A stretch of DNA of 31,709 bases from a virus: positions 1 to 31,709 of the IMG/VR virus record IMGVR_UViG_3300027710_001321; one strand, given 5' to 3'. Made by a program: the position numbers and the translations under genes. The notes under the pieces were generated by a model. It searched no databases. It had not been told where the DNA came from and saw only the letters and a program-made list of their open reading frames with translations. Of this stretch, positions 4,575 through 21,728 are shown in pieces. Every line of letters starts with the position of its first letter. Positions within the stretch are counted from its first letter, which is position 1.

Positions 4575-4856
4575 CTAGTTCTCCATAGTCAAATACTTCC
4601 ATGTATTTGCCCAATCATTTCTATTCTTATGCTTACTGAATTCTTTGGAGAGTTCTCCATTTTCTAAATAGATTCCTCCCCAAATTCCCCACTCTTTTTG
4701 AGATACCCCAACTGCAAAACAAGTTTTGGAGACTGGACATTGAGAACAGAGTTTGTCAATCGCTGGCCTTAGTAACTCATCTTCCTCATACTTGTCAAAG
4801 AATAGGTTAGTATCATATTCTAAGCAAGCAGCATCATCTTTCCAGTCATTCTTCAT
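4575..4856 (-). CDS. WhiB-like Fe-S transcription factor
   Basis: 93 aa. The four cluster ligands are C11, C37, C40 and C46 (C-x25-C-x2-C-x5-C), and the family turn GIWGG is at 57-61, followed by a basic stretch. WhiB proteins bind a 4Fe-4S cluster, contact the sigma factor region 4 and are confined to actinobacteria and their phages, so this gene is the best single pointer to the host. Phage copies are known to act on host transcription or superinfection in mycobacteriophages (TM4 WhiB); the target here is unknown. It lies mid-operon, 3 nt from its upstream neighbour. Confidence 0.93.
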   Translation of the reverse strand: MKNDWKDDAACLEYDTNLFFDKYEEDELLRPAIDKLCSQCPVSKTCFAVGVSQKEWGIWGGIYLENGELSKEFSKHKNRNDWANTWKYLTMEN

Positions 4857-7235: not shown

Positions 7236-7324
7236 GACGGCCACTCAATATTGTTTGGCTTAGTTATAAAGTTCCACACCTTAGATACCCATCTCTTTAC
7301 GTTTTTGCGTAGCCGAAATAGCAT
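7232..7324 (-). CDS. Short basic ORF, 30 aa
   Basis: Open frame in the +1 phase over the end of the kinase-nucleotidyltransferase gene, filling the 45-nt gap to DUF2061. It begins MLFRLRKNVKRWVSK and ends KPNNIEWPS. Its TGA overlaps the next ATG as ATGA, which supports translation. A GGGGG run lies about 9 nt before its ATG. It may be only a coupling peptide. Confidence is limited because most of it overlaps another gene. Confidence 0.35.
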   Translation of the reverse strand: MLFRLRKNVKRWVSKVWNFITKPNNIEWPS

Positions 7325-8042
7325 GAATGTCTGCCCCCAAATCCACTTGTTCAATCTTATATCCTACATCACGACCATATACAATGTTGGTAATGTTAGG
7401 AAGTCTTAGTACTAATGCGCCATCCATAAATTCATCCTTAGCAATATACTCTTTTACCTGATCAAACTTAAGTGGATCCTTTTCGCTTGTATTATATGTA
7501 TTACGGACTCCAAGTAGTACTTGGTCTGTTCTCTTCCCCGCTTCTTTGTAAAGAGCGTGGTGGCCTTCGTGCCATGGCTGATACCTACCCAGCATAAGAG
7601 TTGTAGGTGCAGACCAATCGTGTAGCCCAAACTTATCAATGATATGGGATGCCTTTGCTTCTGCATCTAGATTGTGACCAACAAATGATACATCAAACTC
7701 TGTTGGTCTTTCAAACATCTTGTTTGTGTCCTCAAAGCGACCCTCCGCAATTGTGTCCATAAAGACCAGAATATCTGGCTTTCCAAATGCTGCACGAGTT
7801 AGGTCTGTTGGACAAACAAAATCCACAATTACTGGCGCTACACCCTGCTTAGAGATAAGTCTTGCCATCTCACCCATACGACGAGCCTGCTCAAGTCTAT
7901 CTTCTGGGGCAAACCCTAAGTCTGAATTGACTGTTGCACGGACTTCATCTGCATTAAGATGAATGGCATTAATACGCTCTTTTAGGGCCTTTGCTAGTTC
8001 TGTTTTACCAGAACCAGGTAGGCCAATAATCTGAATAATCAT
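7281..8042 (-). CDS. P-loop kinase fused to nucleotidyltransferase
   Basis: 253 aa, two domains. Residues 1-130 hold a Walker A loop GLPGSGKT (7-14) and a kinase core like adenylylsulfate kinase (NADEVRATVNSDLGF, then VDFVCPT). Residues 145-253 hold a cytidylyl/NMN-adenylyltransferase core: LMLGRYQPWHEGHHALY with the H-x-G-H signature, GVRNTYNTSEKDPL, and the late ISATQKR. NadR of bacteria joins the same two activities in reverse order, so NAD salvage is one possibility; APS/PAPS or sugar-nucleotide chemistry is another. Translation is coupled by TAATG to the gene upstream. Confidence 0.85.
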   Translation of the reverse strand: MIIQIIGLPGSGKTELAKALKERINAIHLNADEVRATVNSDLGFAPEDRLEQARRMGEMARLISKQGVAPVIVDFVCPTDLTRAAFGKPDILVFMDTIAEGRFEDTNKMFERPTEFDVSFVGHNLDAEAKASHIIDKFGLHDWSAPTTLMLGRYQPWHEGHHALYKEAGKRTDQVLLGVRNTYNTSEKDPLKFDQVKEYIAKDEFMDGALVLRLPNITNIVYGRDVGYKIEQVDLGADIHAISATQKRKEMGI

Positions 8043-8589: not shown

Positions 8590-8789
8590 TACTTTACCTT
8601 ATTTCCAAACTTTGCCCACACTCTTTCGTGAAGAAAATATCCAAGTGCTTCCCAACCGATATAAATAAGAGCACCAAGACTAGCATACTCCCACTCACCA
8701 GTAAATAAATAAATCACACCAGCAACTCCAACAAGGTGAAATGTTTCCCAACTTGCTGTCTTTAGTAAAGTTCTTCTAGTTGATTCCAT
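8589..8789 (-). CDS. DUF2061-like membrane protein (copy B)
   Basis: 66 aa from the ATG at 8789, which overlaps the endolysin stop as TAATG. RRTLLKTASWETFHLVGVAG, then ASLGALIYIGWEALGYFLHE and RVWAKFG, match the DUF2061 layout with two membrane helices and the HERxW ending. It differs from copy A at about half of the positions, so the duplication is old or the two were gained separately. Position right after the endolysin allows a lysis role (inference). Confidence 0.85.
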   Translation of the reverse strand: MESTRRTLLKTASWETFHLVGVAGVIYLFTGEWEYASLGALIYIGWEALGYFLHERVWAKFGNKVK

Positions 8790-9427
8790 TATAGAGCCAC
8801 AGAACCCTTTCCTCCGCCACCTGATGACTTCTTTACAGCAGGCTTTGCAGGTGTTGATGCTACCTTGTTTAGCAACGGAGCATTTTCTTCTCCAGTATAA
8901 ACTGGACGACCCCAACCAACTACAGCATTAACCAACTTCTTCTTATTGTTCTTTACATAGCCACGAGTCTTCTCAACGCACATTCCTCCGTTGCGCTGAT
9001 CTCCCTTTGCAGTTCCTGATGTATTTCCTTCAACAACTTGGATAGTTCCATCGCCATTGTTCTTAATGCAAAGACCAACATGTGAAATACGATTTACACC
9101 GTCTTCTGGGAAATCAAAATAGATCCAGTCTCCTGGCATTGGATCATCGTTACGAGCATCTGACCAACGGCCTTCCTTCTTGAACTGATCTGACGCTGCT
9201 ACTGTTGATGCAGACTTTGGAAACTTTGAAACTCCCGCAGTAAATGCACACCAAGAAACGAATGATTGGCACCATGGTTGGAAGTTAACCTTCATCCATG
9301 CACCATACTTTGTTTCGTTATCCTTAGGACCCTCAATGGTTCCTAGTTCTTTCTTTGCAACCGCAATGATTGCTTCTACAGATCCCTTTGCTGGCTTACT
9401 AGATCCTCCTGATATTGCTTCTTTCAT
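8789..9427 (-). CDS. CHAP-domain endolysin
   Basis: 212 aa. Catalytic residues of the CHAP amidase/endopeptidase fold are visible: C53 in PWCQSFVSWC, H116 in RISHVGLC and the polar VVEGN (132-135). The domain covers about 15-170. A Pro/Lys and Gly-rich C-terminal tail (KPAVKKSSGGGGKGSVAL) follows, too short for a known wall-binding domain. No signal peptide, so export would rely on a holin. DUF2061-B directly downstream and the short helical gene upstream are coupled to it by TAATG. Confidence 0.92.
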   Translation of the reverse strand: MKEAISGGSSKPAKGSVEAIIAVAKKELGTIEGPKDNETKYGAWMKVNFQPWCQSFVSWCAFTAGVSKFPKSASTVAASDQFKKEGRWSDARNDDPMPGDWIYFDFPEDGVNRISHVGLCIKNNGDGTIQVVEGNTSGTAKGDQRNGGMCVEKTRGYVKNNKKKLVNAVVGWGRPVYTGEENAPLLNKVASTPAKPAVKKSSGGGGKGSVAL

Positions 9428-9597
9428 TACATTATCTCCTTTTCATTTTTAAATGTCATATGACTCATATCATGAACTTCTTCAAAACTTACTTTTAATG
9501 CTTGCTTAGCAAGTTTTTTATAAGCAATACAAAGTTCTTCATATTTCTTATACATAAAGTTAAGTTCTGATAAAAGTTCTTCTTCTCTATTTCTCAT
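9427..9597 (-). CDS. Short helical protein, 56 aa
   Basis: Found by translating the gap. It is coupled on both sides by TAATG overlaps, to the oxygenase upstream and the endolysin downstream. The sequence is a charged helix (MRNREEELLSELNFMYKKYE, later AYKKLAKQALKVSFEEV) suited to a coiled coil, ending HMTFKNEKEIM. AAGGAG near its end serves as the Shine-Dalgarno of the endolysin. No family recognised. Confidence 0.75.
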   Translation of the reverse strand: MRNREEELLSELNFMYKKYEELCIAYKKLAKQALKVSFEEVHDMSHMTFKNEKEIM

Positions 9598-10274
9598 TAC
9601 TCTGTCCCATCTGTATATATCTTGTTACTCATATTATGATACCAGTTAGGAAGGGCATATCTTGTTCCCTTTGTCACTGCAGCAACTTCATGAACATATA
9701 CAAACATTGATGGGAAAAAGATGGCACTGCCAGCACCTGGCTTGACTGTAACCCCATTCCCTACGTATGGAAATGTTATCTCTCCTCCATCAAAATCATC
9801 ATTTAGATATAGGACAACTGATAGCGTTCTACTGCTACTGCCATGGTCAGTATGCGCTGGCAAATACCCTGCTGTCTCATACTTTAATATACTCATGTTA
9901 TCCTCTTTGCCCTTTAAGTTTCTAGATGCATATGGGTAAATTTCTGTTGAATAGTGCTTAAAACTAGAATCAAGTGCGCTGAATAGTCTATCGGATATTG
10001 ATGAGTATTCTGCATAGTACATATCTTTTTCATTCATATCTTCTGTTCTTGGAAGCCAACGCTGTTTGCAAAAATGAAGAGTCATTGTTCCATTGTCATG
10101 ATCCCAGTTGTGCCAAGGCTTTACAAAACTTTCTGCAGCGCCTGGTACTCCATTTTTAATATCGTTTTCTATCCTATTATTTAGTTCTTCTATATCTGAA
10201 ATAATTTGATATGGATCTTCAATAAGATTTTTATAAAAAACTAAACCATCTCCTAATTTTTCATATGTAAACAT
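9597..10274 (-). CDS. 2OG-Fe(II) dioxygenase, P4H-like
   Basis: 225 aa. The triad is H141-T-D143 (LPAHTDHG) and H195 (YVHEVAAV), with R205 (GTRYALPNWY) for 2-oxoglutarate. The YLNDDFDGGEITFPY and VKPGAGSAIFFPS motifs are those of prolyl-4-hydroxylase-like enzymes. It is closely similar in layout to the 14565 and 11098 products. It is the last gene of the modification island before the lysis cassette and is coupled by TAATG to the gene upstream. Confidence 0.93.
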   Translation of the reverse strand: MFTYEKLGDGLVFYKNLIEDPYQIISDIEELNNRIENDIKNGVPGAAESFVKPWHNWDHDNGTMTLHFCKQRWLPRTEDMNEKDMYYAEYSSISDRLFSALDSSFKHYSTEIYPYASRNLKGKEDNMSILKYETAGYLPAHTDHGSSSRTLSVVLYLNDDFDGGEITFPYVGNGVTVKPGAGSAIFFPSMFVYVHEVAAVTKGTRYALPNWYHNMSNKIYTDGTE

Positions 10275-11095
10275 TATTTTCCAACTTTCTTCTCTACATT
10301 GAACATTCTCTTGTCGTCTTCAGTTAATTGTGAGTCATCTCCAAAAACTGGCTCTGGCAATCCATCAACACTCTTTACATGATCTACATATAGTTCTTGC
10401 CAAATGTGAAGTCTTTGCTTTTGAAAATCAAGGAAGTCTTTATCTTGTATGTACTCGTTGCCATAAAGATTTTTCCAATGATCCTTTCTAATTAAATGAA
10501 AGAATAAAACCTTATAGTTCTCTTCTGGATTATCCGAATTCCATGCTGGCCTGTAATGAAAGTCTAGTTCTGGTTGAACAATAATTGCATCATTTGGCTT
10601 TGTTATAAATTCTTTATCGTGTGCAATAAAACCCCAGTCACGATTTCCACCAATATGAAGATCAACCATATAGCATCCTGGAGACCAGTCTAGGTGAACT
10701 TGCAAAAATGGCTTACGGCCTTCTGCTGTTATTTGGTGATGTGCGTATAGATAATAGCCTAACTCCACATCTTTTGTTCCTAGCAAGTCTTGTGTTCTTT
10801 TGATAGCCTTATCAAAGAAATGTTGCGGAATAGTGATTGCATCTTCCCATTTATTCATTTGCTTTGTATATGCAATATCCTTGACATCTTTAGACTCTAG
10901 TATACCCTTTAATTCTTCAAAATCATTTTTATCAAAGAAGTTTTCTACTAGAAATGGATCAAAGAATAAAACATTCTTTCTAAACATTTCTTCAAATTTG
11001 AGGTAATGATCTCTACTACAAAATTTCCAGTCGATCATGCTCTCATCTGGATGATTTTCCAGCATTGCAAATGTTGTATCTCTAAAATTTACCAT
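10274..11095 (-). CDS. Probable 2OG-oxygenase-like protein
   Basis: 273 aa. Candidate iron ligands are H134-L-D136 (FLQVHLDWSPG) and H180 (LDFHYRPAW); the 2-oxoglutarate-binding basic residue is not obvious. The context between two clear oxygenases, the strand pattern of residues 110-205 and the closing VLFFHLIRK support the assignment. The N-terminal 100 residues and the helical tail are extra compared with small P4H-like enzymes. It is the most diverged of the group, and the activity is uncertain. Confidence 0.68.
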   Translation of the reverse strand: MVNFRDTTFAMLENHPDESMIDWKFCSRDHYLKFEEMFRKNVLFFDPFLVENFFDKNDFEELKGILESKDVKDIAYTKQMNKWEDAITIPQHFFDKAIKRTQDLLGTKDVELGYYLYAHHQITAEGRKPFLQVHLDWSPGCYMVDLHIGGNRDWGFIAHDKEFITKPNDAIIVQPELDFHYRPAWNSDNPEENYKVLFFHLIRKDHWKNLYGNEYIQDKDFLDFQKQRLHIWQELYVDHVKSVDGLPEPVFGDDSQLTEDDKRMFNVEKKVGK

Positions 11096-11097
11096 AA

Positions 11098-11643
11098 TTA
11101 GTCCAAGTCTGGATCTACATGTTCGAGTTGAGTTGTGTGCATATAAAGCAGAGTAGATCGTTCTCCACTTTCAACTGGTGTAATTCCGTGCTTCCAATCG
11201 CTGCCATCGCTAATAAAGAATACTCCAGAATATTTTTTTGGAACATACTCAAAGTTTTTTGCAGGGAAAAATATTGTTCCACCCTCAAAATTATCATTCA
11301 AATATATAACTGTGCTGTACTCAATAAATGGTTCTGGGTCTTGGTCATCAACATGAACCAAGCCATATCCCCCTGGGCTCCATGTAGATCCAAAACACTT
11401 GAATGTTTTTATTTCATTTGGCTCTTCTGGATTTAGTTTTTGCAATAACTCATTTGACTTTAGAGCATATTTTTTTTGTATTGCTAAAACCCGACTGTTG
11501 TATGGATATCCCGTTCCACCAAACCTAGTTTTATAATATTCTGGATAAGGATTTACCTCAGATGGTGTAGACATTTCTTCTAATAGTATCGCTGCATCTT
11601 CTGCAGATATAAAATCTTCAACAACTACTGGAACTGTAAGCAT
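11098..11643 (-). CDS. 2OG-Fe(II) dioxygenase, P4H-like
   Basis: 181 aa. H97-V-D99 (YGLVHVDDQ) and H152 (DWKHGITPV) with R162 (ERSTLLYMH) form the expected iron and cosubstrate set. VIYLNDNFEGGTIFFP is the usual P4H-like strand pair. An AGGAGG Shine-Dalgarno and an extended -10 (TGGTATAAT, 11661-11669) precede it, so it can be transcribed separately from the glycosyltransferase gene upstream. Confidence 0.92.
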   Translation of the reverse strand: MLTVPVVVEDFISAEDAAILLEEMSTPSEVNPYPEYYKTRFGGTGYPYNSRVLAIQKKYALKSNELLQKLNPEEPNEIKTFKCFGSTWSPGGYGLVHVDDQDPEPFIEYSTVIYLNDNFEGGTIFFPAKNFEYVPKKYSGVFFISDGSDWKHGITPVESGERSTLLYMHTTQLEHVDPDLD

Positions 11644-11660
11644 TTTTTTCCTCCTAACAT

Positions 11661-11669
11661 ATTATACCA
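11661..11669 (-). promoter_or_regulatory. Extended -10 promoter
   Basis: TGGTATAAT on the minus strand, 17 nt before the ATG at 11643, with an AGGAGG Shine-Dalgarno between. It lies immediately after the stop of the glycosyltransferase gene, so it makes the three downstream oxygenase genes a possible separate unit. Confidence 0.6.
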
Positions 11670-12512
11670 CTACTCTATACTTCGTACATTGCTGATAAAT
11701 CTTGTTTCATTCATCTCGTCGAGATCCATAGCGGTGTTATACGATGTGTCATCATGAGAAAATGGAAGCCATGACAGTTTGCTAAAATCAAAGCCTGTCA
11801 AACTATATAGTTTATCTACACATGAAAGACCATCAAAAAAGGCATTGGACTCTTTAACAAATAGACTTGTCACTAGGTCATAGTTATGCTTTAAAGAAAA
11901 AGGAACATAGTCTACTCCACTAATGCCACTATCAAGTCTACGGCACCATGCGCTGGCAATTGCAAAAATAGGAACATCTTTACTGCAAGCATACATTGAA
12001 TAAACTTCTTCTAATCCATAATGCTTTAGTCTAGACAAGTTTGGAAAATCTTTAAACATTTCAGTTGTCATAAAAATAAAATCTTGAGATATCCAATTAG
12101 TCATGGTTGTTGTGTTAAGTGCTGCTTTAAAATAGTTAGGATAAAACTTATATTGTGGAACAAAATTTATTAAAGCATTTCCACTAAGTACGCAAGGTCT
12201 TCCTCCATGCCCCATAACCAATTCTAAATCCCAATTTTTTTCAAACATGATTGCACCATCAATATACATAAAATAGTCTTTGTCACATTCTAATAAAGAA
12301 TTGTTTAGATATGTAAAGGGAGACTCTAGAGAGTCCCAGTAAACATGGCTATATGATACATCTGGAAACTTTTCTTCTCTATCTATGTTAACCTGGTCAT
12401 ACACTGAAACTACTATATTGTGATGACCACTCTGATTATTAATTAATGAAGATACTGCTTCTGGAAGTTCTTTACTTTTGTATCCATACACATGTACAAA
12501 TATGCTCTTCAT
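11670..12512 (-). CDS. GT60-like glycosyltransferase (GlcNAc-transferase fold)
   Basis: 280 aa from the ATG at 12512, one base after the upstream TAA; 16 extra codons upstream lie inside another gene. The start KSIFVHVYGYKSKELPEAVS plus NIVVSVYDQ, then YFMYIDGAIMFEKNWDLEL (80-98), follow the layout of GT60/GlcNAc-type transferases (IFVSI-x-YRDPEL, then IDSHMRFxxxWD). The D85-centred motif would bind the metal and sugar nucleotide. In eukaryotes GT60 caps a hydroxyproline made by a P4H on Skp1; here P4H-like enzymes are neighbours. The family call is from motif memory. Confidence 0.65.
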   Translation of the reverse strand: MKSIFVHVYGYKSKELPEAVSSLINNQSGHHNIVVSVYDQVNIDREEKFPDVSYSHVYWDSLESPFTYLNNSLLECDKDYFMYIDGAIMFEKNWDLELVMGHGGRPCVLSGNALINFVPQYKFYPNYFKAALNTTTMTNWISQDFIFMTTEMFKDFPNLSRLKHYGLEEVYSMYACSKDVPIFAIASAWCRRLDSGISGVDYVPFSLKHNYDLVTSLFVKESNAFFDGLSCVDKLYSLTGFDFSKLSWLPFSHDDTSYNTAMDLDEMNETRFISNVRSIE

Positions 12513-12513
12513 T

Positions 12514-13170
12514 TTATAGTAACGGAATCCAGTGTTGCTCAATAGTACCTGGATTATCAATCAAAGACTGAAGAGGCTCAATGTCGTATGCAAGTGTGAT
12601 TCTTGCTCCATTCCAGTTCCAGTCTCCCATGGCATGAGGATGACCCATTTCAGAAATAACTAGCCTATTATTTTTATTAACATTATCTACAACCCTACTA
12701 GTTCCATCATTAATTTGGTAATGAGTTATAGATGGCTCTGCTGCGATGCAATAGTATCCATGAAAATGTGGAGCAAATGGTCCGCCATGATCATGCCAGT
12801 TTAACTTACCAACCTCTGAGTGATTTATGTTAAACCATCCCTGGACCATATACTTTTGTTCTTCAAAATTAATTCCATAATATTCACAGGCTTCACGAGT
12901 TGCTTCTGAAATTCCTTTAAAAACATTATAGATTTCATTATTTGAAAACTGAAAAACATTGTACTCTCTCCACTTAACAGTAGAAAGACTTCCAGATTCT
13001 ACCCACGCTTCTTCCTGTCCTAATTCATCTACACCACGCAGTTTTGCTGATTGGATTAATTCATATTTTTCTGTTAAGAATTTTGAAAGTTTATCCAGGT
13101 CATTGTCTAGGTAGCGCTCAAAAAATTTATGAGGCTTAGTTGAAACCTGAACTGTCTTGCTTGCTATCAT
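12514..13170 (-). CDS. 2OG-oxygenase-like protein, His-rich core
   Basis: 218 aa. Candidate ligands cluster in LNWHDHGGPFAPHFHGYYC (H126, D127, H128, H135, H137) and GHPHAMGDWNW (H177, H179), with R190 in ARITLAYDI as cosubstrate residue. The pattern fits a double-stranded beta-helix oxygenase of the TIGR02466-like type. AAAGGGG precedes the ATG, with TATAAT at 13194. It is joined to the glycosyltransferase gene by TAA-A-ATG. Confidence 0.75.
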   Translation of the reverse strand: MIASKTVQVSTKPHKFFERYLDNDLDKLSKFLTEKYELIQSAKLRGVDELGQEEAWVESGSLSTVKWREYNVFQFSNNEIYNVFKGISEATREACEYYGINFEEQKYMVQGWFNINHSEVGKLNWHDHGGPFAPHFHGYYCIAAEPSITHYQINDGTSRVVDNVNKNNRLVISEMGHPHAMGDWNWNGARITLAYDIEPLQSLIDNPGTIEQHWIPLL

Positions 13171-13193
13171 TTTTTCCCCTTTGTTATATAACT

Positions 13194-13199
13194 ATTATA
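13194..13199 (-). promoter_or_regulatory. -10 element before the 12514-13170 gene
   Basis: TATAAT on the minus strand, preceded by TAG rather than TGN, about 24 nt before the ATG at 13170. An AAAGGGG Shine-Dalgarno lies between. No clear -35. Confidence 0.4.
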
Positions 13200-13940
13200 C
13201 TACAGATCTCTTTTGGTGTATTGCTTTTTGCGCCAGGCAAATTTTCTATAATGTGCAGTAATGTGAGACCTTCTGTTTTCAGATAGTAGTTCATGCTTGT
13301 CTAACATTTCCTGTGATTGATCAATGACCAGGTTCCAATTATCTCTCTTGATTGGAATCATCTGAGCAATTGGAGTTCCCTTTGGTATTACCCCTTCAAA
13401 ATTTCTTTTAATAAACAGCGGAAGGAAAGCAGGCAACCCCCATATATCAGAGTCAACAATACCAGATGGAGTCCAGAAAGGCAGGTCTGGTCTGTTTAGT
13501 GGCATTGTCATTAGTAAAGAGTAGTCTGGTGGAGTTTCATAAAACCAATTCATTTTAACACCAAAATGTATTGGATGAACATCATCGGGTATAGCCATAT
13601 CTACATATGGCCTTTTGTCAATAAGCATTAGGTCAGAGTCCCAAGATAGTCTTGGCTTACCACTCTTAGAAAGTTCTACTGTAAGATTTCCCTCTAGACA
13701 ATACATGTACCCAAGAGACATTGCGTCCTGAAATGGCAGACACAGTTTTGTAGAAACATTAGATCCGTCTCCACCCCTATCATTAATTGGATCGAGATTT
13801 TCTAAATCATTTGAAACATAGTGCTTTGCAAGATCACGATACCATTGAGGTATTTTTTTATATGCAGGCTCTGGTGGTAAATAGTCTGGGTGATTTCCAG
13901 CAACAAAAATAATATCAATTTCTTTATCTGTATTGCTCAT
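13200..13940 (-). CDS. DUF6065-like (cupin-type) protein
   Basis: 246 aa. PPEPAYKKIPQWYRDL opens the domain. KLCLPFQDAMSLGYMYCLEG, MNWFYETPPDYSLLMTMPLN, VDSDIWGLPAFLPLFIKRNF and IPKGTPIAQMIPIKRDNW follow in the order typical of DUF6065-like proteins, which have a beta-sandwich resembling cupins. These occur beside oxygenases in some bacterial and phage clusters, though no activity is established. It overlaps the upstream gene by 17 nt. Confidence 0.65.
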   Translation of the reverse strand: MSNTDKEIDIIFVAGNHPDYLPPEPAYKKIPQWYRDLAKHYVSNDLENLDPINDRGGDGSNVSTKLCLPFQDAMSLGYMYCLEGNLTVELSKSGKPRLSWDSDLMLIDKRPYVDMAIPDDVHPIHFGVKMNWFYETPPDYSLLMTMPLNRPDLPFWTPSGIVDSDIWGLPAFLPLFIKRNFEGVIPKGTPIAQMIPIKRDNWNLVIDQSQEMLDKHELLSENRRSHITAHYRKFAWRKKQYTKRDL

Positions 13941-14565
13941 TTATTTTTTCCAAGTCTTTGTCGTTTAGATTTAGCGTTATGTCATACATTGGTGTTCCTA
14001 TTTCAATTATACCATAATTAGAATTTTTCATATGAGCACCGAACCTTTTTATCTTAAAGTCAATAAAAGGCACATCTATAAAATCTAAAATAATATCATT
14101 TTCTTTTGTATTAATTATTGATTTCTCAGAATAAAAGCAGTCTCCTGCTGGACTAATCTCTATCATAGAATTCAGATCTATTATCCATGGCATATAAAAT
14201 TTATATGTTGGCTCGAAAGAATCTGGGTCGTCAATTTTATTTTCAGATGGATAGAACTGTCTTTGGTGACACTTATCTAAGGCATAAAGATCGTCACTTT
14301 TTATATCTACCCAAATTTCAGCATGGGTTTTTTGTCTAAGTTTTACAGTATTATTGTTTATTGACAATATTTCTGGTCTTGGGTATAGATTTGACACATA
14401 TCTATTGACTGGTTTTACTATACTATTTCTATATTTTTCTTCAATTAGAGAGTATTTTGACCATTTTGCTGGGACCCTTGATCCCGTAAGTATTTGACTA
14501 AAAGAAAGTTCAGAACTATTTAGCCAAAATTCACTTCCACGCATTCCATTTTTAACCTCAATCAT
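13924..14565 (-). CDS. Unrecognised protein of the modification island
   Basis: 213 aa. No motif I can name. The middle (YKFYMPWIIDLNSMIEISPA, then GDCFYSEKSI) and the end (IEIGTPMYDITLNLND) have the alternating short strands of a beta-sandwich and faintly recall the DUF6065-like neighbour, for example GTPxxxI near the C-terminus. It is coupled by TAATG to the oxygenase upstream and overlaps the DUF6065-like gene, so the three are translated as a unit. Confidence 0.7.
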   Translation of the reverse strand: MIEVKNGMRGSEFWLNSSELSFSQILTGSRVPAKWSKYSLIEEKYRNSIVKPVNRYVSNLYPRPEILSINNNTVKLRQKTHAEIWVDIKSDDLYALDKCHQRQFYPSENKIDDPDSFEPTYKFYMPWIIDLNSMIEISPAGDCFYSEKSIINTKENDIILDFIDVPFIDFKIKRFGAHMKNSNYGIIEIGTPMYDITLNLNDKDLEKINEQYR

Positions 14566-15236
14566 TATTTACGCATAACGATCTCATTAAAACTATCTTC
14601 TTGGTACTCATATCCACCATGGTTTGGTTCTTCTAAAAATTCCGCACCGTATTCTCTTACATCAAATCCGTGGAAGAATGGCAGTGTGTATCTTCCGACA
14701 CTACCCTCATTAGGGAAAATGCTAGTGACTTGGTGCATATAAAATGATGGGAACATGCAGAGACTTCCTGCAGAAGGTTTAAACCCATAGTCAAAGTCTT
14801 CAAAATATAGTTCTCCTCCATCAAAATCATCAGTTAGATAAACCAAAGAACTAATTGGTAGCCCTAGCCTTAACTTGTCATCTTCTGTTGGCATGCCTTC
14901 GTGACCATCTCTATGTCCTTGTAGGCCACCGCTAGTCCATCTAACTATTTCAATATCTCTTTTCCAGTTTAGCCTGGTCACCCTTAGTTCATGGGATGCA
15001 GCGTATTCTCCAATAATAAAGGTATATGCTTTTTTTTCTAACTCTATCATTAAGTCTTTAACTTCTTTATCTTTTATGCCAACAAAGGGAAACACTATTC
15101 TTCCATACTGATCTATCACATCTGAATACTTATCTTTGGATGCTATCTTTTCTGCATAAGATATAATTAAATCTGCTTCATCTTTAGTTACAAAATTTTT
15201 CTTTTCATGAATTTTACTTACATCCCAATTAAACAT
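14565..15236 (-). CDS. 2OG-Fe(II) dioxygenase, P4H-like
   Basis: 223 aa. H108-R-D110 (LQGHRDGHEG) and H168 (FYMHQVTS) bind iron; R182 (VGRYTLPFFHG) would hold 2-oxoglutarate. VYLTDDFDGGELYFED and KPSAGSLCMFPS are the conserved P4H-like strands. It overlaps the SGNH gene upstream by 8 nt, linking the oxygenase group to the SGNH/carbamoyltransferase group in one transcript. Confidence 0.93.
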   Translation of the reverse strand: MFNWDVSKIHEKKNFVTKDEADLIISYAEKIASKDKYSDVIDQYGRIVFPFVGIKDKEVKDLMIELEKKAYTFIIGEYAASHELRVTRLNWKRDIEIVRWTSGGLQGHRDGHEGMPTEDDKLRLGLPISSLVYLTDDFDGGELYFEDFDYGFKPSAGSLCMFPSFYMHQVTSIFPNEGSVGRYTLPFFHGFDVREYGAEFLEEPNHGGYEYQEDSFNEIVMRK

Positions 15237-16149
15237 TTTTCACATCCTTTTCTTTATATATTGAGGAAAACGCATCAAAAAATCTATCAGCAATTAGTTT
15301 ATGATATCCAATTCCTGGATGATTTCTATCTCTTGCCATATACCAATATGGGTCATTTTCTGTATTTTCTTCAATAGTGTATGATTCACGACTTGGTACA
15401 TCTATATAATTATTAAAGCCAAGTTCTTCTGACATCTTTTTATAATCTTCAGACCATGTGGACCAAATAAGGTCTATACCTAAGGCCCTACAAACAAATT
15501 CTAAATTATGAATGTAGTCTGTTGCAAATAAAATACTTTCTTCAATCACATAACTTTCCATAAAATGTTTTACTCCATTATTTTTTTTGTAATTTTCATG
15601 GTGTGGTTGAGTTATGGTTACCTTAATAAAACTTCTGCTATTATTTTGATCTTGATACTTTATTGTTCTTTCAAACCCTGGGAATAATACAAAAAGATAA
15701 TCTGGCTTTCCATATTTTTCTATATAGATTCTTAGGTTTTTGCAAATTTGAAAAACATTACTACCACCAAGGGCTATGTTTCTATGCTCTACATTTTTAT
15801 TTGAAACTTTTGATATCATCTTTATAACTTTTGCTGGCCATGCATAGTCCGATGGTAGGCCTGCACCATGAGTAAATGAACAACCAGAAAATAAAATATT
15901 TAAATTTTCGCCACTAAGTTTTTCAAAATGCTTCGTCCTAAATCCATCGAGATTAATCTTATAATCAAAGTATGGTCCGTCAGAAATAACTTCATGGTCG
16001 TAGAGTCTAAACTTTACCATATAGTCATCTTCATCAATTTTTATGGATTGCTCTAGATCAGAATTTACTTTACTGAAATTTTCTCCAGTTTGGTATTCAA
16101 TCTCTCTCCTATCCAAAGCACTATCAAGTAGGGAAAAATTATCAGACAA
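15229..16149 (-). CDS. SGNH/GDSL-like hydrolase, paralogue 1
   Basis: 306 aa from a TTG start with AAGGA 7 nt upstream. Blocks: GCSFTHGAGL (nucleophile S91), ALGGSN (G block), KPDYLFVLFPGFER, and D274-R-N-H277 (DRNHPG). It shares INLDGFRT, GKPDY and WSTWS with the two other SGNH genes. Family members are esterases or acyl-transfer enzymes acting on O-acyl groups. The frame stays open upstream, without ATG, to a stop near 16281, and reads KISSINPNSLYDYSSF there, so a start further upstream at ATT (16206) is possible but not needed. Confidence 0.85.
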   Translation of the reverse strand: MSDNFSLLDSALDRREIEYQTGENFSKVNSDLEQSIKIDEDDYMVKFRLYDHEVISDGPYFDYKINLDGFRTKHFEKLSGENLNILFSGCSFTHGAGLPSDYAWPAKVIKMISKVSNKNVEHRNIALGGSNVFQICKNLRIYIEKYGKPDYLFVLFPGFERTIKYQDQNNSRSFIKVTITQPHHENYKKNNGVKHFMESYVIEESILFATDYIHNLEFVCRALGIDLIWSTWSEDYKKMSEELGFNNYIDVPSRESYTIEENTENDPYWYMARDRNHPGIGYHKLIADRFFDAFSSIYKEKDVKNV

Positions 16150-16201
16150 AAGTTCATCCTTGATAAATCTAAAAGATGAATAATCGTAGAGTGAGTTTGG
16201 G

Positions 16202-16270
16202 TTAATAGATGAAATCTTCTTTTCCTGCTTTCTTGTATATTTTCCTGTAGCGCACTCTAAAGTACACCAT
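16202..16270 (-). CDS. Short basic ORF, 22 aa
   Basis: Found in the 128-nt gap between SGNH 1 and SGNH 2. It starts with ATG 7 nt after the SGNH 2 stop and reads MVYFRVRYRKIYKKAGKE, ending in IY. Six of 22 residues are Lys or Arg in the central part. The ending resembles the 25-aa ORF at 18555-18632 (YRxxxxxKKxxKxxIY in both). No Shine-Dalgarno better than AGG is seen, so it could be a chance frame. Confidence 0.35.
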   Translation of the reverse strand: MVYFRVRYRKIYKKAGKEDFIY

Positions 16271-16277
16271 CCTAAGC

Positions 16278-17126
16278 CTATTTATTATTTTTTGCATAAT
16301 CTATTATAGCATTAATTAGATTAGTTGACCATACCTTATGAGCGTTTAGCCCTTGGTGACCATCTCTTTTAATGACCTCGTTTTGCTTATATTCAAAAAA
16401 TTCAGGGTGATAATTAAATTCAATAAAGTTTTTAGAAAAGTTTAATTCTGACAATACAGAGTTTTCTAATCTACTCCATGTGCTCCAAAATAATTTTATT
16501 TGATTTATTCTACAATATTCTTCAAACATATTTATATATAAAATAAAATCTATCATTGAGTCCATATATAGTTTTCTGTTTTCTTTTATTTCTAAATGAT
16601 TAAGATCTTTCCATTCAATTGTATAAGAGTTTTCGCTATCCAACCACTTAAAAACTCTTGCAACATCTGGGAAAAGTACTACGAAGGCATCTGGCTTTCC
16701 AAATTCTTTAACATAAAGCAAACAGTTCATTATTATTTTTTGAAATCCAAAGTTGTCAATAGATAGATTATAGAATCCGTCCAGACTTAGTTCATCCTTA
16801 ATAGCATTATACGTCATTCCAGTCCAACTATCTTCTATGTTGCCACCAATTCCCTCACCTTCAGAGCACCCAGCAAAAACAAACCTATTTTTTTTACTAT
16901 CTGTTTTTTTTACAAAATCGTCTGACCTAAAACCCAGACTGTTGTAATGATAGGAAACAGAGCCATCATCTTCTGGAACTGGGATGTTGTTCATTTTAAA
17001 CATAGGAAATTCTTTTGGATGAATTGCAAATGTAGCGTTATGGTGCTCTGAACCTTCAAGGTCAGAGAAAAAGAGAGAGTTACTATTTGTATTGAGTATT
17101 GCTTTTACTATAGAGTCTTTATCCAT
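16278..17126 (-). CDS. SGNH-like protein, paralogue 2, altered catalytic end
   Basis: 282 aa. GCSEGEGIGG (S88) is the nucleophile block, GKPDAFVVLFPDVAR and WSTWSRL match paralogue 1. The last block reads R-D255-G-H257 instead of D-x-x-H, so the Asp is displaced by one position. It may be inactive or use another geometry. The N-terminus (AILNTNSNSLFF, YHYNSLGFRSDDF) shares the N-x-x-G-F/H-R motif of the trio. It overlaps the carbamoyltransferase gene by 8 nt. Confidence 0.82.
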   Translation of the reverse strand: MDKDSIVKAILNTNSNSLFFSDLEGSEHHNATFAIHPKEFPMFKMNNIPVPEDDGSVSYHYNSLGFRSDDFVKKTDSKKNRFVFAGCSEGEGIGGNIEDSWTGMTYNAIKDELSLDGFYNLSIDNFGFQKIIMNCLLYVKEFGKPDAFVVLFPDVARVFKWLDSENSYTIEWKDLNHLEIKENRKLYMDSMIDFILYINMFEEYCRINQIKLFWSTWSRLENSVLSELNFSKNFIEFNYHPEFFEYKQNEVIKRDGHQGLNAHKVWSTNLINAIIDYAKNNK

Positions 17127-18555
17127 TTTCTGATCCTATAATCTTTGTTCCATATGTTTTTTCCCATAGTTCAATATCTTTTTTATCATTCAGCAACGGC
17201 TGCCCTTTAATATTTAAACTTGTGTTTAGTAGTATAGGTACACCTGTTTGTAGGTAAAACTTATTAATTGCCCGATATAGACCTGGGTGCTGTTCTCTTG
17301 TTACAGTTTGTACTCTTGAAGTTCCATCTTGATGAACCACAGAAGGTATTTTTTCTGGCTTTAAACATTTAACTGTGTACTGCATATAAGGGCTTTCAAA
17401 GTCCATATCAAACCACTTGTGTGCATGGTCAGCCAATACAACTGGTGCAAAAGGTCTAAACAGTTCTCTTTGCTTAATTCTATTAACCTTATCCTTGATA
17501 TTAGGATCTCTTGGATCAGCGAGGATTGACCTATTCCCTAATGCTCTTGGACCATACTCTGCTCTTCCTGATGCTACTGCTACGATTCCGTCTTTTAGTA
17601 TACCGTCCACAATTTGCTGAACAGGATACTCTCCTCCAAGATCATAACCAAGATATGGGGTCTTCCACCCAAGGTGTTTTCCATACAGTGCTGCTGCTGC
17701 ACCCAAAGAACTGCCAGCATCTCCTGGATTAGGCATAATCCAAATCATGTCAAAGATATTCCAAAGTAGCGTATTTGCTGATGAGTTAAGTGCACAACCA
17801 CCCATAAATACCAAATTCTTTTTACCAGTAATGGAATAGGCCATATGCATAAAATCATTTAGCCTTTGTTGATAGACAACCTGAACTGCTGCAGCAATAT
17901 CAAATCTGTCTTGCTCTGTAATCTCCATTCCCCAGTCATTGATTCCTTTATGAAAGTTGTACTTTTGGTTTGAATATGACGGGAAGTATTCATCGACCTC
18001 TTTATAATATCTTTTCCAGTCCCCGTAAGCAGCCATTCCCATCATAATATACTCTTCTTGGTTGGGCATTAAGCCTATTAACTGTGTAAAGGCAGAATAG
18101 AATAGACCGAAACTTACTGGATAGTTTTGCTTATACTTTAATTTTATTTTATCTCCCTCTCCAACCCAAATGGTTGAAGTGTTATATTCTCCTATTGCAT
18201 CTAGTACAACAATAACGGCATTGTCGAAGGCGCTTGTATAGTATCCTGCTGCTGCATGAGAATAGTGATGACTAAAAGATTTTCTTGGTATTCCATCTAT
18301 ATTAAACCTTGGCTTCCATTCCCCAGATCCACCCCTTAAAGCCAGTCTGGAGGCCTTTAGGAGAGGCTTTTCATAATAGGCTATGTGATCTGGTCTACCA
18401 TACTGTAAAGCATCTTTTATTAAACTATCATTCACATACCAATCATTTTTTTTCTTGCTGTATCTTTCTGCATGTCCAGCAAAAAGTATTTCTCCATCTT
18501 TGATTAAAGATACGGACGCATCGTGAGAGGTTTCGTTTATTCCAAGAATAATCAT
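17119..18555 (-). CDS. Carbamoyltransferase, NodU/TobZ family
   Basis: 478 aa. The N-terminal Kae1-like domain has GINETSHDASVSLIKDG, the metal motif SFSHHYSHAAAGYY (H96, H97, H100), VVLDAIGEY and VFMGGCALNSSANT with PNPGDAGSSLGAA. The C-terminal YrdC-like part has GRAEYGPRALGNRSILADPR, RELFRPFAPVVL and PILLNTSLNIKGQP. All core blocks are present; it is somewhat shorter than TobZ. The family makes carbamoyl-adenylate from carbamoyl phosphate and ATP and moves the carbamoyl group to a sugar or antibiotic hydroxyl. Its close overlap with SGNH 2 and coupling to SGNH 3 suggest one pathway. Confidence 0.95.
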   Translation of the reverse strand: MIILGINETSHDASVSLIKDGEILFAGHAERYSKKKNDWYVNDSLIKDALQYGRPDHIAYYEKPLLKASRLALRGGSGEWKPRFNIDGIPRKSFSHHYSHAAAGYYTSAFDNAVIVVLDAIGEYNTSTIWVGEGDKIKLKYKQNYPVSFGLFYSAFTQLIGLMPNQEEYIMMGMAAYGDWKRYYKEVDEYFPSYSNQKYNFHKGINDWGMEITEQDRFDIAAAVQVVYQQRLNDFMHMAYSITGKKNLVFMGGCALNSSANTLLWNIFDMIWIMPNPGDAGSSLGAAAALYGKHLGWKTPYLGYDLGGEYPVQQIVDGILKDGIVAVASGRAEYGPRALGNRSILADPRDPNIKDKVNRIKQRELFRPFAPVVLADHAHKWFDMDFESPYMQYTVKCLKPEKIPSVVHQDGTSRVQTVTREQHPGLYRAINKFYLQTGVPILLNTSLNIKGQPLLNDKKDIELWEKTYGTKIIGSENG

Positions 18556-18632
18556 CAGTATATATACCTCTTTGGTTTTTTATTAAATCTTCTTAATCTA
18601 TACTTTAAGATTATTTTTTTTATTATGCTCAT
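18555..18632 (-). CDS. Short very basic ORF, 25 aa
   Basis: It exactly bridges SGNH 3 and the carbamoyltransferase: its ATG overlaps the SGNH 3 stop as ATGA (18629-18632) and its TGA overlaps the next ATG as TGATG. The peptide starts MSIIKKIILKYRLRRFNKK and ends KRYIY, with eleven Lys/Arg. A short amphipathic, membrane- or RNA-binding helix is possible. Exact double coupling argues for translation. Confidence 0.55.
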   Translation of the reverse strand: MSIIKKIILKYRLRRFNKKPKRYIY

Positions 18633-19411
18633 TGTTCTACCCTATCTAAAAAATGTTTTGCAAAATACATACTGGTGATAACTCCTGGATGCACAGAGTC
18701 TGCAGCGCTAACTAAAAAGTCTTTATCGTATCCGTCTAAATCATCTTTATTAAGGCTCATTAGAAAATCCTCTTCTCTTTCAAGGTCCATATTACCATAG
18801 TTTGAAAACCCTAAAGTAGAAAATATGTGACTTGTTTCATCATCCCAAGAGGATGTATATAGTTTTATTCCTAATTGACTGCAGAATATCTCAAAAGATC
18901 TATAGTACGCTTGGCAAGAATATATCATGGAGTGCTCAGACATAGTGCTAGAACTATCTAAATCATTTTGGTGGCGCATTTTAATAACAAACAAATCTCC
19001 ATCTGTAGTTGGCCAATTTGTTCTAAATAAGTCTGGAAGCAATAAGAATATGTAATCTGGTTTTCCAAATAAATTAATGTATTTATAAATATTATCGATT
19101 ATTTTTTGCACACTTCCTCCTGGATAGGAAAGCGTGAATGGTTTAGATGTGTCAAACTTTTTTGACATGCCTTTGTGTACGTGGTACTGCCATGAATAAC
19201 CTTCTGGTAGATACTCACCAAATGCCATTGAGCAACCAGCGTACAAAATATTTGTTTTGCTTTTGTCTAATACATCAAAGTCTTCAGATCTATGGCCAAA
19301 ATTATTCATCCTATATTTTATTTTTGGTATAGTTTTTTTGTTAATCTTATTAATTCTTTCTTTAAAAACATCAGTCACGCTGTACTCTTTATTAAAAGAT
19401 ATGTTTTGCAA
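18629..19411 (-). CDS. SGNH/GDSL-like hydrolase, paralogue 3
   Basis: 260 aa from the TTG at 19411. GCSMAFGEYLP (S61) and D238-S-V-H241 (ADSVHPG) give the SGNH nucleophile and Asp/His; GKPDYIFLLLPDLFR and YRMNNFGHRSEDF match the paralogues. The frame is open for 29 further codons to ATA (19498), which overlaps the protease stop as ATAA and has GGAG 7 nt upstream. That stretch (LIRNPEYFYNNKELFTK) looks coding, so the true start may be the rare ATA. Confidence 0.83.
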   Translation of the reverse strand: MQNISFNKEYSVTDVFKERINKINKKTIPKIKYRMNNFGHRSEDFDVLDKSKTNILYAGCSMAFGEYLPEGYSWQYHVHKGMSKKFDTSKPFTLSYPGGSVQKIIDNIYKYINLFGKPDYIFLLLPDLFRTNWPTTDGDLFVIKMRHQNDLDSSSTMSEHSMIYSCQAYYRSFEIFCSQLGIKLYTSSWDDETSHIFSTLGFSNYGNMDLEREEDFLMSLNKDDLDGYDKDFLVSAADSVHPGVITSMYFAKHFLDRVEQ

Positions 19412-19494
19412 AGAAGGCTCTATAGTGTTTGAAAACTCAACCTTTGTGAAAAGTTCTTTATTATTGTAGAAATATTCTGGATTTCTTATTAGGT

Positions 19495-20382
19495 TTATTT
19501 TTTTACTCCTAACTTTTTAACTATTTTTTTATTTTTGGCTGCTATTTTTTTGACAATAACTTTGGGCTTAGTAGAAACTGAATTTGCTGCAACAACAGCA
19601 GTAGTTGTTTCTTCTATTTTTGTAGACTTTATAGGTTCTAAAATTAAAGGATTTGCCAATAAAAATTCTTTTGCTTGATCTATCAGATATAAATGATGAT
19701 GGATTAGAGCATTTCTTGCTAAAGAAATTGGTTGACTATCTGATGAACAGAATGGCTTATTTGATGAAACTGTTGCTCCTAAATAGTATACATAATCATT
19801 ATCAAAAACATAGGAAGGTCCTCCAGAGTCTCCACTACATACTTCAGATAAATTATTTATTGAATAAAACTCAGTATATCCATCATGCCCGTTCATATAC
19901 GCAGGAGGATTTTTAACAAACCTAAATGCTGCACGAGATGGAGTAGAGCCATAAGAATATCTATCTATTAATCCATGCCCATAAAAATAAACAATGCTTT
20001 CTGACTCTGTAAACCTTTTGATATCCTCATAAGATGCTATCTTGATATTATTTTTTATTGGCATATCTTTATCAACAACAATTGCCATAATGTCATTTTC
20101 TCTGTTATTAACATAGTCTTTGATTGGAACAAAACTTGATATTACCCTATACATAACTTTATTATTTTTGCCTTCTTCATAAAAACTAATCAAAGTTGAA
20201 CCAGTTTTGACTGAGCAATGTTGTGCTAAGATCAAGATTCTTGTAGAGATTGGTGCTGCAGAGCAGCCAGAGTCTGTTTTTGCAACAAGAGTGTTATCTG
20301 ATACATCCTCTCCTTTATATATTGCATTTGCAGAAGGTGTAATAAAAGTAAAGAATAGCAATATCGATATAAATTTTTTCAT
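19495..20382 (-). CDS. Secreted trypsin-like serine protease
   Basis: 295 aa from the ATG at 20382 (GGAG upstream). Residues 1-20 form a signal peptide, MKKFISILLFFTFITPSANA, with an A-x-A cut site. The S1 triad is H55 (ILAQHC), D97 (REND-IMAIVV) and S186 (CSGDSGGPS). Cys pairs C40/C56 and C182/C218 could form disulfides outside the cell. A Thr/Ala/Val linker and a Lys-rich tail (KKIAAKNKKIVKKLGVKK) follow the domain. S1 proteases with export signals are rare in phages. Possible roles are trimming host surface proteins or processing the exported phage proteins; both are inference. Confidence 0.93.
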   Translation of the reverse strand: MKKFISILLFFTFITPSANAIYKGEDVSDNTLVAKTDSGCSAAPISTRILILAQHCSVKTGSTLISFYEEGKNNKVMYRVISSFVPIKDYVNNRENDIMAIVVDKDMPIKNNIKIASYEDIKRFTESESIVYFYGHGLIDRYSYGSTPSRAAFRFVKNPPAYMNGHDGYTEFYSINNLSEVCSGDSGGPSYVFDNDYVYYLGATVSSNKPFCSSDSQPISLARNALIHHHLYLIDQAKEFLLANPLILEPIKSTKIEETTTAVVAANSVSTKPKVIVKKIAAKNKKIVKKLGVKK

Positions 20383-20383
20383 A

Positions 20384-20929
20384 TTACTCCTGTGATAACG
20401 ATCCAAAGCCCATAGATACGGCGCATCTAGGTGAGTTTGCAGACACTTCGTGCCAACGACTTGGTGGACAATAAATTATATCTCCTTGGTTAAGTGTCTC
20501 TACAATGTCTATATCTGTTTCATTTTTGTAAATTGTCCATGTACTGCTACCTTGTAGTTGCCAAAAAATAACATGCTCAGGTTCATGGTGCTTTCCACCA
20601 TAAGATCCTTCTTGTGTTGTAAGACTTATGTATATCTGATGAGCATAATCTTCTTCATCTAAATCTTCAAAGTGAGGAGATTTGGCAAAAACAGAATATA
20701 GTTTATCTACAAGTAGTCTAACTTCTGGAATTCTGGTTGCTTCAATAAGTCTAAATCCATAGTCTTTATAAATTTTACTTCCAATTTGACCACCATTTAA
20801 TACATCATAATTTAATAATTCAAGAACTGTTTGCCAAGAAACATCTGGAAAATTAGAGCCACGAATAACAAAAGGGGTATTGTTTTTAAACTTACTTATG
20901 TTTTGATCATTAATTAAAGTACTAAACAC
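20384..20929 (-). CDS. JmjC-like cupin oxygenase
   Basis: 181 aa with a GTG start 5 nt after AGGAG. The iron site is H114-x-E116 (GKHHEPEHVIFWQLQGSSTW) and H160 (PPSRWHEVS), in the cupin_4/JmjC pattern H-x-(D/E)...H, with QGDIIYCPP between. Bacterial relatives (RoxA/YcfD type) hydroxylate ribosomal proteins; this one is shorter and its target is unknown. It ends one base before the trypsin-like gene's ATG context, so the two are co-transcribed. Confidence 0.87.
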   Translation of the reverse strand: MFSTLINDQNISKFKNNTPFVIRGSNFPDVSWQTVLELLNYDVLNGGQIGSKIYKDYGFRLIEATRIPEVRLLVDKLYSVFAKSPHFEDLDEEDYAHQIYISLTTQEGSYGGKHHEPEHVIFWQLQGSSTWTIYKNETDIDIVETLNQGDIIYCPPSRWHEVSANSPRCAVSMGFGSLSQE

Positions 20930-21146: not shown

Positions 21147-21671
21147 CTAAAGACTGACAATGTCAACTGGGCCCATACAGGATGGGTTAAATTTAATTGC
21201 AGCGTTTACTGCTTGTGCTACTCTGTTCCTTGCATTTTTTTGTTTGTCTGTTGCGTACAGAACTCCATAAGCGTACTCTGCTCCTGAGCCCATTGCAAGA
21301 TATGGAAGTGTGTACTTAGATAAAGACATGTCAGCAGAACTATGCTCATAGATTTCTCCACGAACCGCAATGATCAAACCAAGATCTCCATCTTTAGATG
21401 TGTCAACCCAGAACTCATTATAAAATTCTTTAAGTTCTTTAATAAACTTAGTTTGCATAAACTTGTCTGTGTCTTTAATATTAGGTGCTGTTGGCTTAAA
21501 GTTATAACGGATTCTTTCTCCGTCCATTGCCCCCGCATACCCAATAAGATATGGACCTATCTTCCAAACCTTTGGTGCATCAAGTGCTAAAATAGTTCCA
21601 TCATCTGAAGCCCCACGGTCTCCAGCCATGTAGATCTTATCTTCATGTTTTACTACGGCAATACAAGTCAT
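21147..21671 (-). CDS. Proteasome-beta/HslV-like Ntn hydrolase
   Basis: 174 aa from the ATG at 21671 (GGAGAGG upstream). After removal of Met the chain begins TCIAVV; counting from that Thr, D17 (AGDRG) and K33 (APKVWKI) fall at exactly the positions of the proteasome beta triad Thr1/Asp17/Lys33. IGPYLIGYAG and LPYLAMGSGAEYAYGVL (the SGxG-like stretch) are also canonical. No propeptide. Whether it forms rings alone or with host ATPases cannot be told from sequence. It has its own promoter (TTGACA-18-TATACT) with an inverted repeat. Confidence 0.93.
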   Translation of the reverse strand: MTCIAVVKHEDKIYMAGDRGASDDGTILALDAPKVWKIGPYLIGYAGAMDGERIRYNFKPTAPNIKDTDKFMQTKFIKELKEFYNEFWVDTSKDGDLGLIIAVRGEIYEHSSADMSLSKYTLPYLAMGSGAEYAYGVLYATDKQKNARNRVAQAVNAAIKFNPSCMGPVDIVSL

Positions 21672-21677
21672 GGCAAA

Positions 21678-21728
21678 AGCCCTCTCCAGATAGGTGATAC
21701 TTAAGTATACCATTGCCTAGAGAGGGCT
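21678..21728. repeat. 9-bp inverted repeat over promoter and ribosome binding site
   Basis: AGCCCTCTC (21678-21686) and GAGAGGGCT (21720-21728) are perfect inverted copies 33 bp apart. One arm covers the Shine-Dalgarno of the Ntn hydrolase gene, the other sits in the -35/-10 spacer. Only one arm would be in the mRNA, so a protein-binding operator or DNA loop is more likely than an RNA hairpin. Confidence 0.65.

Follow-up and report, generated by a model that had tools for sequence, protein, structure and literature searches.

Many aquatic phage genomes carry oxygenases of the 2-oxoglutarate (2OG) type, DUF6065 genes or unusual glycosyltransferases that have no known substrate. A dense island of such genes is present in the virus record IMGVR_UViG_3300027710_001321, all 31,709 bases of which were analysed (hereafter the window): fourteen minus-strand open reading frames (ORFs), with spacings of -47 to +128 bases, fill positions 9597-20929. 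Which of these genes belong together, and on what do they act? An earlier note on this DNA had read the island as a single pathway that hydroxylates, glycosylates, carbamoylates and (de)acylates one substrate. Its description of a dense island of modification enzymes was borne out, since the genes are genuine and, for the most part, appear intact, and the recurrence of these proteins, in unchanged order, in tens of further contigs indicates that the island is more than chance. On the basis of current results, the island is not one pathway. Its coherent part is a five-gene cassette, and this ordered set can be tied to a concrete protein, a putative adhesin of the same phage whose repeats the cassette may modify.

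Order and distribution of the cassette

The cassette has the order D6065b-D6065-2OG218-GT-P4H and forms the core of the island (11098-14565). Its genes in the window, from first to last, are:

13924-14565, minus strand: D6065b, second DUF6065-like protein; weak profile link; first cassette gene
13200-13940, minus strand: D6065, DUF6065-like protein; phrog_7084, E 2e-31; PF19541, 15.5 bits (cut-off 26.6)
12514-13170, minus strand: 2OG218, putative 2OG oxygenase; sole match phrog_2696 (function unknown)
11670-12560, minus strand: GT296, GT60-related glycosyltransferase (GT); PF11397, 19.7 bits (cut-off 21)
11098-11643, minus strand: P4H181, prolyl-hydroxylase-like 2OG oxygenase; phrog_2297/61; last cassette gene

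We compared 80 loci picked by the carbamoyltransferase gene of the island and 80 picked by the terminase gene, and found that the flanks were conserved and the interior was replaced. Both the proteasome-like and the lysin-like flank were shown in 58 loci; the cassette was present in 27 of these (the window and its twin contig L002 included), always between those flanks. Another 80 loci were picked by D6065b alone, 72 of which had at least 3.5 kb behind this gene, the other eight being too short. With only labelled genes counted and unlabelled ORFs in between skipped, D6065 was the next gene after D6065b in all 72 loci, and a GT followed in all 72. Between D6065b and GT we observed D6065-2OG218 (53 loci), D6065-D6065 (14), a longer form (4) or D6065 alone (1), whereas the next labelled gene after GT was P4H (66), 2OG218 (4), a reductase (1) or a NadR-like gene (1). 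The five-gene cassette behaves as a block. The earlier note had proposed to look for gain or loss of the island genes as a block in related contigs, and this holds for the cassette; the carbamoyltransferase and SGNH genes move separately.

Association between the cassette and adhesin repeats

The window sequence is contained in a contig of 109,057 bases (L002, also G001). All eight 40-mers sampled at 4-kb intervals were collinear in it, which places the window at G001:73448-105156, and the compared proteins were 99-100% identical. Outside the window, G001:37780-39147 encodes a 455-residue protein in which FN3-like domains, fifteen (Y/F)SF(T/V)P repeats and an intein-like end could be recognized by reading; a B12-dependent ribonucleotide reductase is encoded at G001:34859-36892. 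The protein itself had no Pfam or PHROG match. Two of its homologues matched fn3 and also gave weak matches to a minor tail protein family; tail-fibre families were matched by the genes next to it. We infer that it is a tail-region adhesin located in the virion. Four repeat types were distinguished among such adhesins: A, [FY]xF[ST]P (FxP); B, FGAF; C, FFPP or FFSPP; and D, YNFYN. The PA14-like protein (22245-23933) was considered as a substrate and rejected, because its proline-rich repeats occur both with and without the cassette.

D6065b and the terminase were searched for in 82 long contigs, and D6065b was found in 34 of them. Fourteen contigs had no adhesin match and were dropped (G006, G014, G030, G031, G033, G035, G037-G042, G046 and G048; among them G006, G014, G040, G041, G042, G046 and G048 bear the cassette). 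In addition, 31 adhesin-bearing contigs (13 with FFPP, 13 with the FxP motif and 5 with neither) were left as undetermined: the search had not detected D6065b in them, and they either lacked the terminase or ended soon behind it. The remaining 37 contigs had an adhesin and a known cassette state; in all ten cassette-free ones the interval from terminase to lysin was inspected.

The motif [FYW][SGATNVD]F[STAVI]P, chosen after the first two batches of contigs, was present in 25 of the 27 cassette-bearing contigs and in none of the ten cassette-free contigs (P=2e-7, kinship ignored). Conversely, FFPP repeats were found in 0 of 27 and 9 of 10 contigs, respectively; the exception, G018, has a type B adhesin and neither cassette nor FFPP. 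In a third batch (21 contigs fetched with adhesin queries), the motif occurred in 6 of 8 cassette-bearing versus 0 of 3 cassette-free contigs, and FFPP in 0 of 8 versus 3 of 3. The cassette was located within a few genes behind the adhesin in ten loci (L198, L202, L206, L216, L217, L219, L220, L225, L299 and L300). It lay tens of kilobases away from the adhesin in 18 of the 27 contigs, and the association could still be observed there (16 of 18 versus 0 of 10; P=5e-6, kinship ignored).

Eight changes of cassette state were counted on a tree built from the terminases of 33 genomes, in which G043 has a long and potentially misplaced branch. Supported branches hold four pairs that are independent of each other; the adhesin type differed in the same way in 3.8 of them on average and in the opposite way in none, and four pairs (three without G076) cannot reach P=0.05. 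Both traits may differ between phages with close terminases, as in the cassette-free FFPP genome G062 and the cassette-bearing G004 (93.9% identity).

Predicted functions of the cassette proteins

In P4H181, residues H97, D99, H152 and R162 (HxD...H plus Arg) were present in all 32 orthologues. All four PDB matches of its profile (E up to 0.01, best 2e-8) were prolyl hydroxylases, and 11 of 15 orthologues matched PF13640, the window protein itself having no Pfam match. P4H181 appears to be a prolyl-hydroxylase-type 2OG oxygenase, with putative activity on proline. The sole match of 2OG218 is of unknown function, and therefore this protein is called a 2OG oxygenase by reading of its conserved residues, a His and an Arg.

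The earlier note's GT60-like glycosyltransferase indeed matched PF11397, which is by name a family of N-acetylglucosamine (GlcNAc) transferases and which we take to be GT60. As the score is under the gathering cut-off, GT296 is filed only as GT60-related. A profile-profile match (98.5%) connects it with a second GT family of these phages, in which all three tested members passed PF11397. Searching the PDB sequences with the profiles of both GT families gave nothing useful.

As to the DUF6065-like protein of the earlier note, family searches agree with it: D6065 has a PHROG match and a PF19541 score under the cut-off. dUTPases have catalytic motifs I-V. D6065 is predicted to have a dUTPase-like fold: for its AlphaFold2 model (21 alignment rows, pLDDT 78), all 50 fold matches listed were dUTPases (Z 9.3-10.2; Foldseek E 3e-4), and a motif III-like GIVDSDIWG at 160 and a motif IV-like IPKGTPIAQ at 185 could be recognized, motifs II and V being not clear by eye. 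The model of D6065b (47 rows, pLDDT 96) found the same list of dUTPases with Z of at most 5.7, and no PDB structure by Foldseek at E <0.001. Profile comparison linked it weakly to D6065 (44%, E 2e-4), and in a viral fold library it matched one close phage protein (E 2.5e-20), four weaker ones (<0.001) and then herpesvirus dUTPases. In cellular genomes, 66 pattern hits for D6065b were obtained, none of which was confirmed. A third DUF6065 gene of G001 (37006-37740) lies between the 455-residue adhesin and the reductase. We found no paper on DUF6065 in the open-access literature.

The predicted fold of D6065 and the class II ribonucleotide reductase genes that adjoin DUF6065 genes could also suggest that the dUTPase-fold proteins, 2OG oxygenases, GT and carbamoyltransferase make a hypermodified DNA base, and a phage carbamoyltransferase acting on 5-hydroxymethylcytosine (5hmC) is known (PMC8670742, excerpted text). 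In the modified contigs described there, the 5hmC carbamoyltransferase is paired with a relative of thymidylate synthase. Such a relative was found in 0 of 14 long contigs examined here; Tet/JBP (PF12851) exceeded the cut-off in 0 of 14, with weak sub-cut-off matches in 10. Modification of DNA or nucleotides is weakened by both results, and we consider it very improbable.

Oxygenase genes behind the adhesins

We also analyzed the genes between adhesin and reductase. A total of 135 loci were taken, and after removal of duplicates and of loci without a reductase or adhesin, 72 distinct loci were retained, four of them of unassigned type. The number of 2OG oxygenases in this interval was 0-4 for type A (25 loci) and 2-8 for type C (18 loci), with at least five in 17 of the latter. 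For type B it was zero in all 25 loci, most of which came via a DUF6065 query and are related; six that came via a reductase query likewise had no oxygenase. Oxygenase number was correlated with proline density (Spearman 0.59, 72 loci). In L301, L314 and L319, at least five prolyl-hydroxylase-like genes and DUF6065 genes are present behind FFPP adhesins, upstream of the reductase.

This local pattern might be due to linkage, which does not account for the association at a distance. One possibility is that the locus is a hot spot of gene exchange, in which recombination swaps the cassette and the adhesin blocks as functionally unconnected cargo. The strong replacement between conserved flanks, the few independent pairs on the terminase tree, the local pattern itself and the scattered 2OG and carbamoyltransferase genes carried by cyanophages (PMC3037559, excerpted text) would all agree with it. 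However, the internal order of the cassette is constant across relatives despite low identity (24-54% for GT), and the association holds even for cassettes located tens of kilobases away from it. Overall, a mere hot spot seems quite unlikely.

A proposed model of adhesin modification

Cassette order, conserved residues and co-occurrence with the adhesin repeat type together led us to propose, with moderate confidence, that the cassette modifies the repeat region of the same phage's tail-region adhesin after translation, by hydroxylation and then glycosylation. For the substrate, the chemistry, the sugar, the role of the DUF6065-like proteins and the benefit of the cassette, we infer the following scheme. 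In the [FY]xF[ST]P repeats, prolyl-hydroxylase-like enzymes would hydroxylate either the proline or a residue next to it. The hydroxyl so formed would receive a sugar from the GT60-related enzyme, in the way that Gnt1 follows PhyA on Skp1, and the other 2OG oxygenase might provide a further hydroxyl. The two DUF6065-like proteins, if dUTPase-folded, may assist, perhaps via binding of a nucleotide sugar or of the repeat protein. The decorated adhesin could have a role in attachment, in shielding or in stability. For FFPP adhesins, the arrays of oxygenase genes behind them may be the counterpart of the cassette. A more general scheme is more tentative: freshwater, probably actinobacterial phages might build hydroxyproline-rich glycosylated tail adhesins, in which each repeat type (YSFTP/FGFSP, FFPP or FGAF) has its own set of 2OG hydroxylases, the FxP type additionally having a GT60-related GT and dUTPase-fold helpers, and in which repeats and enzymes are exchanged together.

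Several observations weigh against the proposed modification. Two type D genomes (G065 and G077, YNFYN) bear the cassette without the motif, and five cassette genomes (G002, G004, G016, G034 and G047) have mainly FGAF repeats with only 1-5 motifs. The choice of the motif after the first two batches and the small number of independent pairs, both mentioned above, also count here. No local oxygenase was found behind 8 of 25 FxP adhesins. Eight of the 25 FGAF adhesins contain proline-rich stretches of another kind (18-28 Pro per 100) and likewise have no oxygenase behind them, which speaks against a simple rule based on proline. As regards glycosylation, only one of five tested cassette GTs reached the PF11397 cut-off (21.0 bits): the window GT is under it, and three of the other four had no match.

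Finally, the cassette mostly adjoins lysis-type genes, away from the tail genes, as might be expected if host type were the common cause. The cassette would then alter a surface molecule of the host (receptor change or superinfection exclusion), phages of that host type would also use FxP adhesins, and enzyme and adhesin would never meet; surface modification has been proposed for glycosyltransferases of freshwater actinophages (PMC10202952, excerpted text). On the other hand, the cassette lies behind the adhesin itself in the ten loci listed above, and DUF6065 and other 2OG genes are located between adhesin and reductase in many more. We regard such a host effect as unlikely.

If adhesin modification is confirmed, the cassette would represent a pathway by which a bacteriophage glycosylates hydroxyproline in an adhesin. 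It would also explain the prolyl-hydroxylase-like arrays behind FFPP adhesins and give DUF6065 a pathway.

Other genes of the island

The remaining nine ORFs of the island are:

9597-10274, minus strand: P4H225, 2OG oxygenase; PF13640, E 4e-15; follows the cassette in some relatives
10274-11095, minus strand: AH273, putative oxygenase; sole match phrog_2954, E 1e-4 (weak); follows the cassette in some relatives
14565-15236, minus strand: P4H223, 2OG oxygenase; PF13640, E 4e-6; adjoins the cassette
15229-16149, minus strand: SGNH-like protein 1; Ser/Asp/His kept; carbamoyltransferase module
16278-17126, minus strand: SGNH-like protein 2; Ser kept, aligned Asp missing
17119-18555, minus strand: O-carbamoyltransferase, TobZ/NodU family; PF16861, E 8e-54; PF02543, E 3e-34; separate module
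18629-19411, minus strand: SGNH-like protein 3; Ser/Asp/His kept
19495-20406, minus strand: trypsin-like protease, signal-peptide-like start; PF00089, E 1e-7
20384-20929, minus strand: JmjC-like cupin; JmjC_2, E 2e-8; ligands kept in 13 of 13 relatives

Five 2OG oxygenases had been claimed. PF13640 supports this for 9597-10274, 14565-15236 and the orthologues of 11098-11643; 12514-13170 matched only phrog_2696, and 10274-11095 only phrog_2954. All four PDB matches of P4H225 were prolyl hydroxylases, and HxD plus a distal His was found in 10 of 10 AH273 sequences. The NodU/TobZ-type carbamoyltransferase was confirmed by two Pfam domains over cut-off, and its PDB relatives included GdmN, TobZ and others (E to 4e-52). 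The JmjC-like cupin was likewise correct, its ligands being HxD/E and a distal His. The three SGNH paralogues do cluster together, and the Ser/Asp/His set is retained in 105 of 110 cluster members and 2 of 3 window ORFs, but no SGNH family match was obtained in Pfam (E 0.1) or PHROG. Two ORFs, the trypsin-like protease and D6065b, had not been listed. Most relatives have a subtilase (PF00082, E 1e-9) in the slot of the protease.

Among the loci picked by carbamoyltransferase or terminase, the carbamoyltransferase and its SGNH neighbours occurred at several genome positions. In 30 long contigs, part of which had been selected via this very gene, the carbamoyltransferase was found in 14 of 19 cassette-bearing contigs, compared with 5 of the 11 in which no cassette was matched (P=0.24). 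We regard the carbamoyltransferase/SGNH module as cargo separate from the cassette, and likewise the protease and the JmjC gene. Hence, although all genes are found together in the window genome and several relatives, it is highly doubtful that carbamoyltransferase, SGNH proteins, oxygenases and glycosyltransferase form a single pathway, and the proposal of one substrate for all enzymes is not supported. A virion protein had been among the substrates suggested, and in this respect the suggestion agrees with the reading that we favour. In L065, L077 and L054, PF11397 glycosyltransferases or their cluster mates adjoin the carbamoyltransferase/SGNH module.

The virus and its probable host

The window terminase was at most 55% identical to those of Stanwilliamsviridae-type Streptomyces phages (for example, Karimac, from its taxonomy line), with which the window virus shares the gene order exonuclease, RuvC, terminase. 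An actinobacterial host is indicated by a WhiB-like ORF (4575-4856, labelled by sequence reading), as whiB is an actinophage marker in fresh water (PMC6802176 and PMC10202952, excerpted texts). It is a lake virus, and its hosts are probably actinobacteria. A lysin/CHAP ORF (8789-9427) and HSP20 were also labelled by reading.

Several other genes were observed in the window: four tRNA genes (Met, Asn, Glu and Arg; 13-318) on the plus strand, opposite to most genes; a proteasome/HslV-like hydrolase gene (21147-21713), conserved beside the island; and a conserved Ala-rich ORF with a signal-peptide-like start (24451-25590), directly behind the terminase in most relatives. Possible sulfation genes are an adenylyl-sulfate-kinase-like and nucleotidyltransferase ORF (7281-8042) and a weak sulfotransferase match (2781-3464). 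An ORF labelled NadR-like by reading fell among adenylyl-sulfate kinase and nucleotidyltransferase models.

With regard to the intein-like end of adhesins, two repeat adhesin-like proteins of one phage (L248:17780-19147 and L408:1498-2766, both minus strand) have such an end, which starts with Cys and ends with VVHNSKV. An L413 homologue gave matches below the cut-off to Intein_splicing (E 0.008) and to Hint (E 0.013). The Pfam intein search returned nothing for the adhesin of the window genome or for the L248 and L408 proteins.

Comparison with known systems

Glycosyltransferases encoded by mycobacteriophages have been proposed or shown to decorate virion proteins. The present case is different in that hydroxylases are included in an ordered cassette that tracks the adhesin repeat type. 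No description of hydroxyproline glycosylation by phages was found in the open-access literature.

Haloviruses HF2 and HJTV-1 resemble the phages studied here in having DUF6065 between tail-fibre/adhesin genes and a class II ribonucleotide reductase gene, but theirs is a single gene on the opposite strand, with no cassette in the two stretches inspected. T4-like cyanophages share the carbamoyltransferase and 2OG families and their patchy distribution (PMC3037559, excerpted text). In contrast, GT296, D6065b and 2OG218 had no match in 50,697 phage records, cyanophages included. P4H181 had 46 matches there, all from cyanophages, with 26% identity among the eight matches listed, and D6065 had 50, from 49 haloviruses and one cyanophage.

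The closest parallel to the proposed chemistry is the Skp1 system of Dictyostelium and Toxoplasma, in which PhyA forms a hydroxyproline that then receives GlcNAc from Gnt1, a GT60 enzyme (PMC6939170, excerpted text). The predicted phage system differs from it in that the genes belong to phages, the proposed target is a repeat adhesin, the GT is distant and the two DUF6065-like proteins have no counterpart. What both have in common is the pairing of a prolyl-hydroxylase-like 2OG enzyme with a GT60-related transferase.

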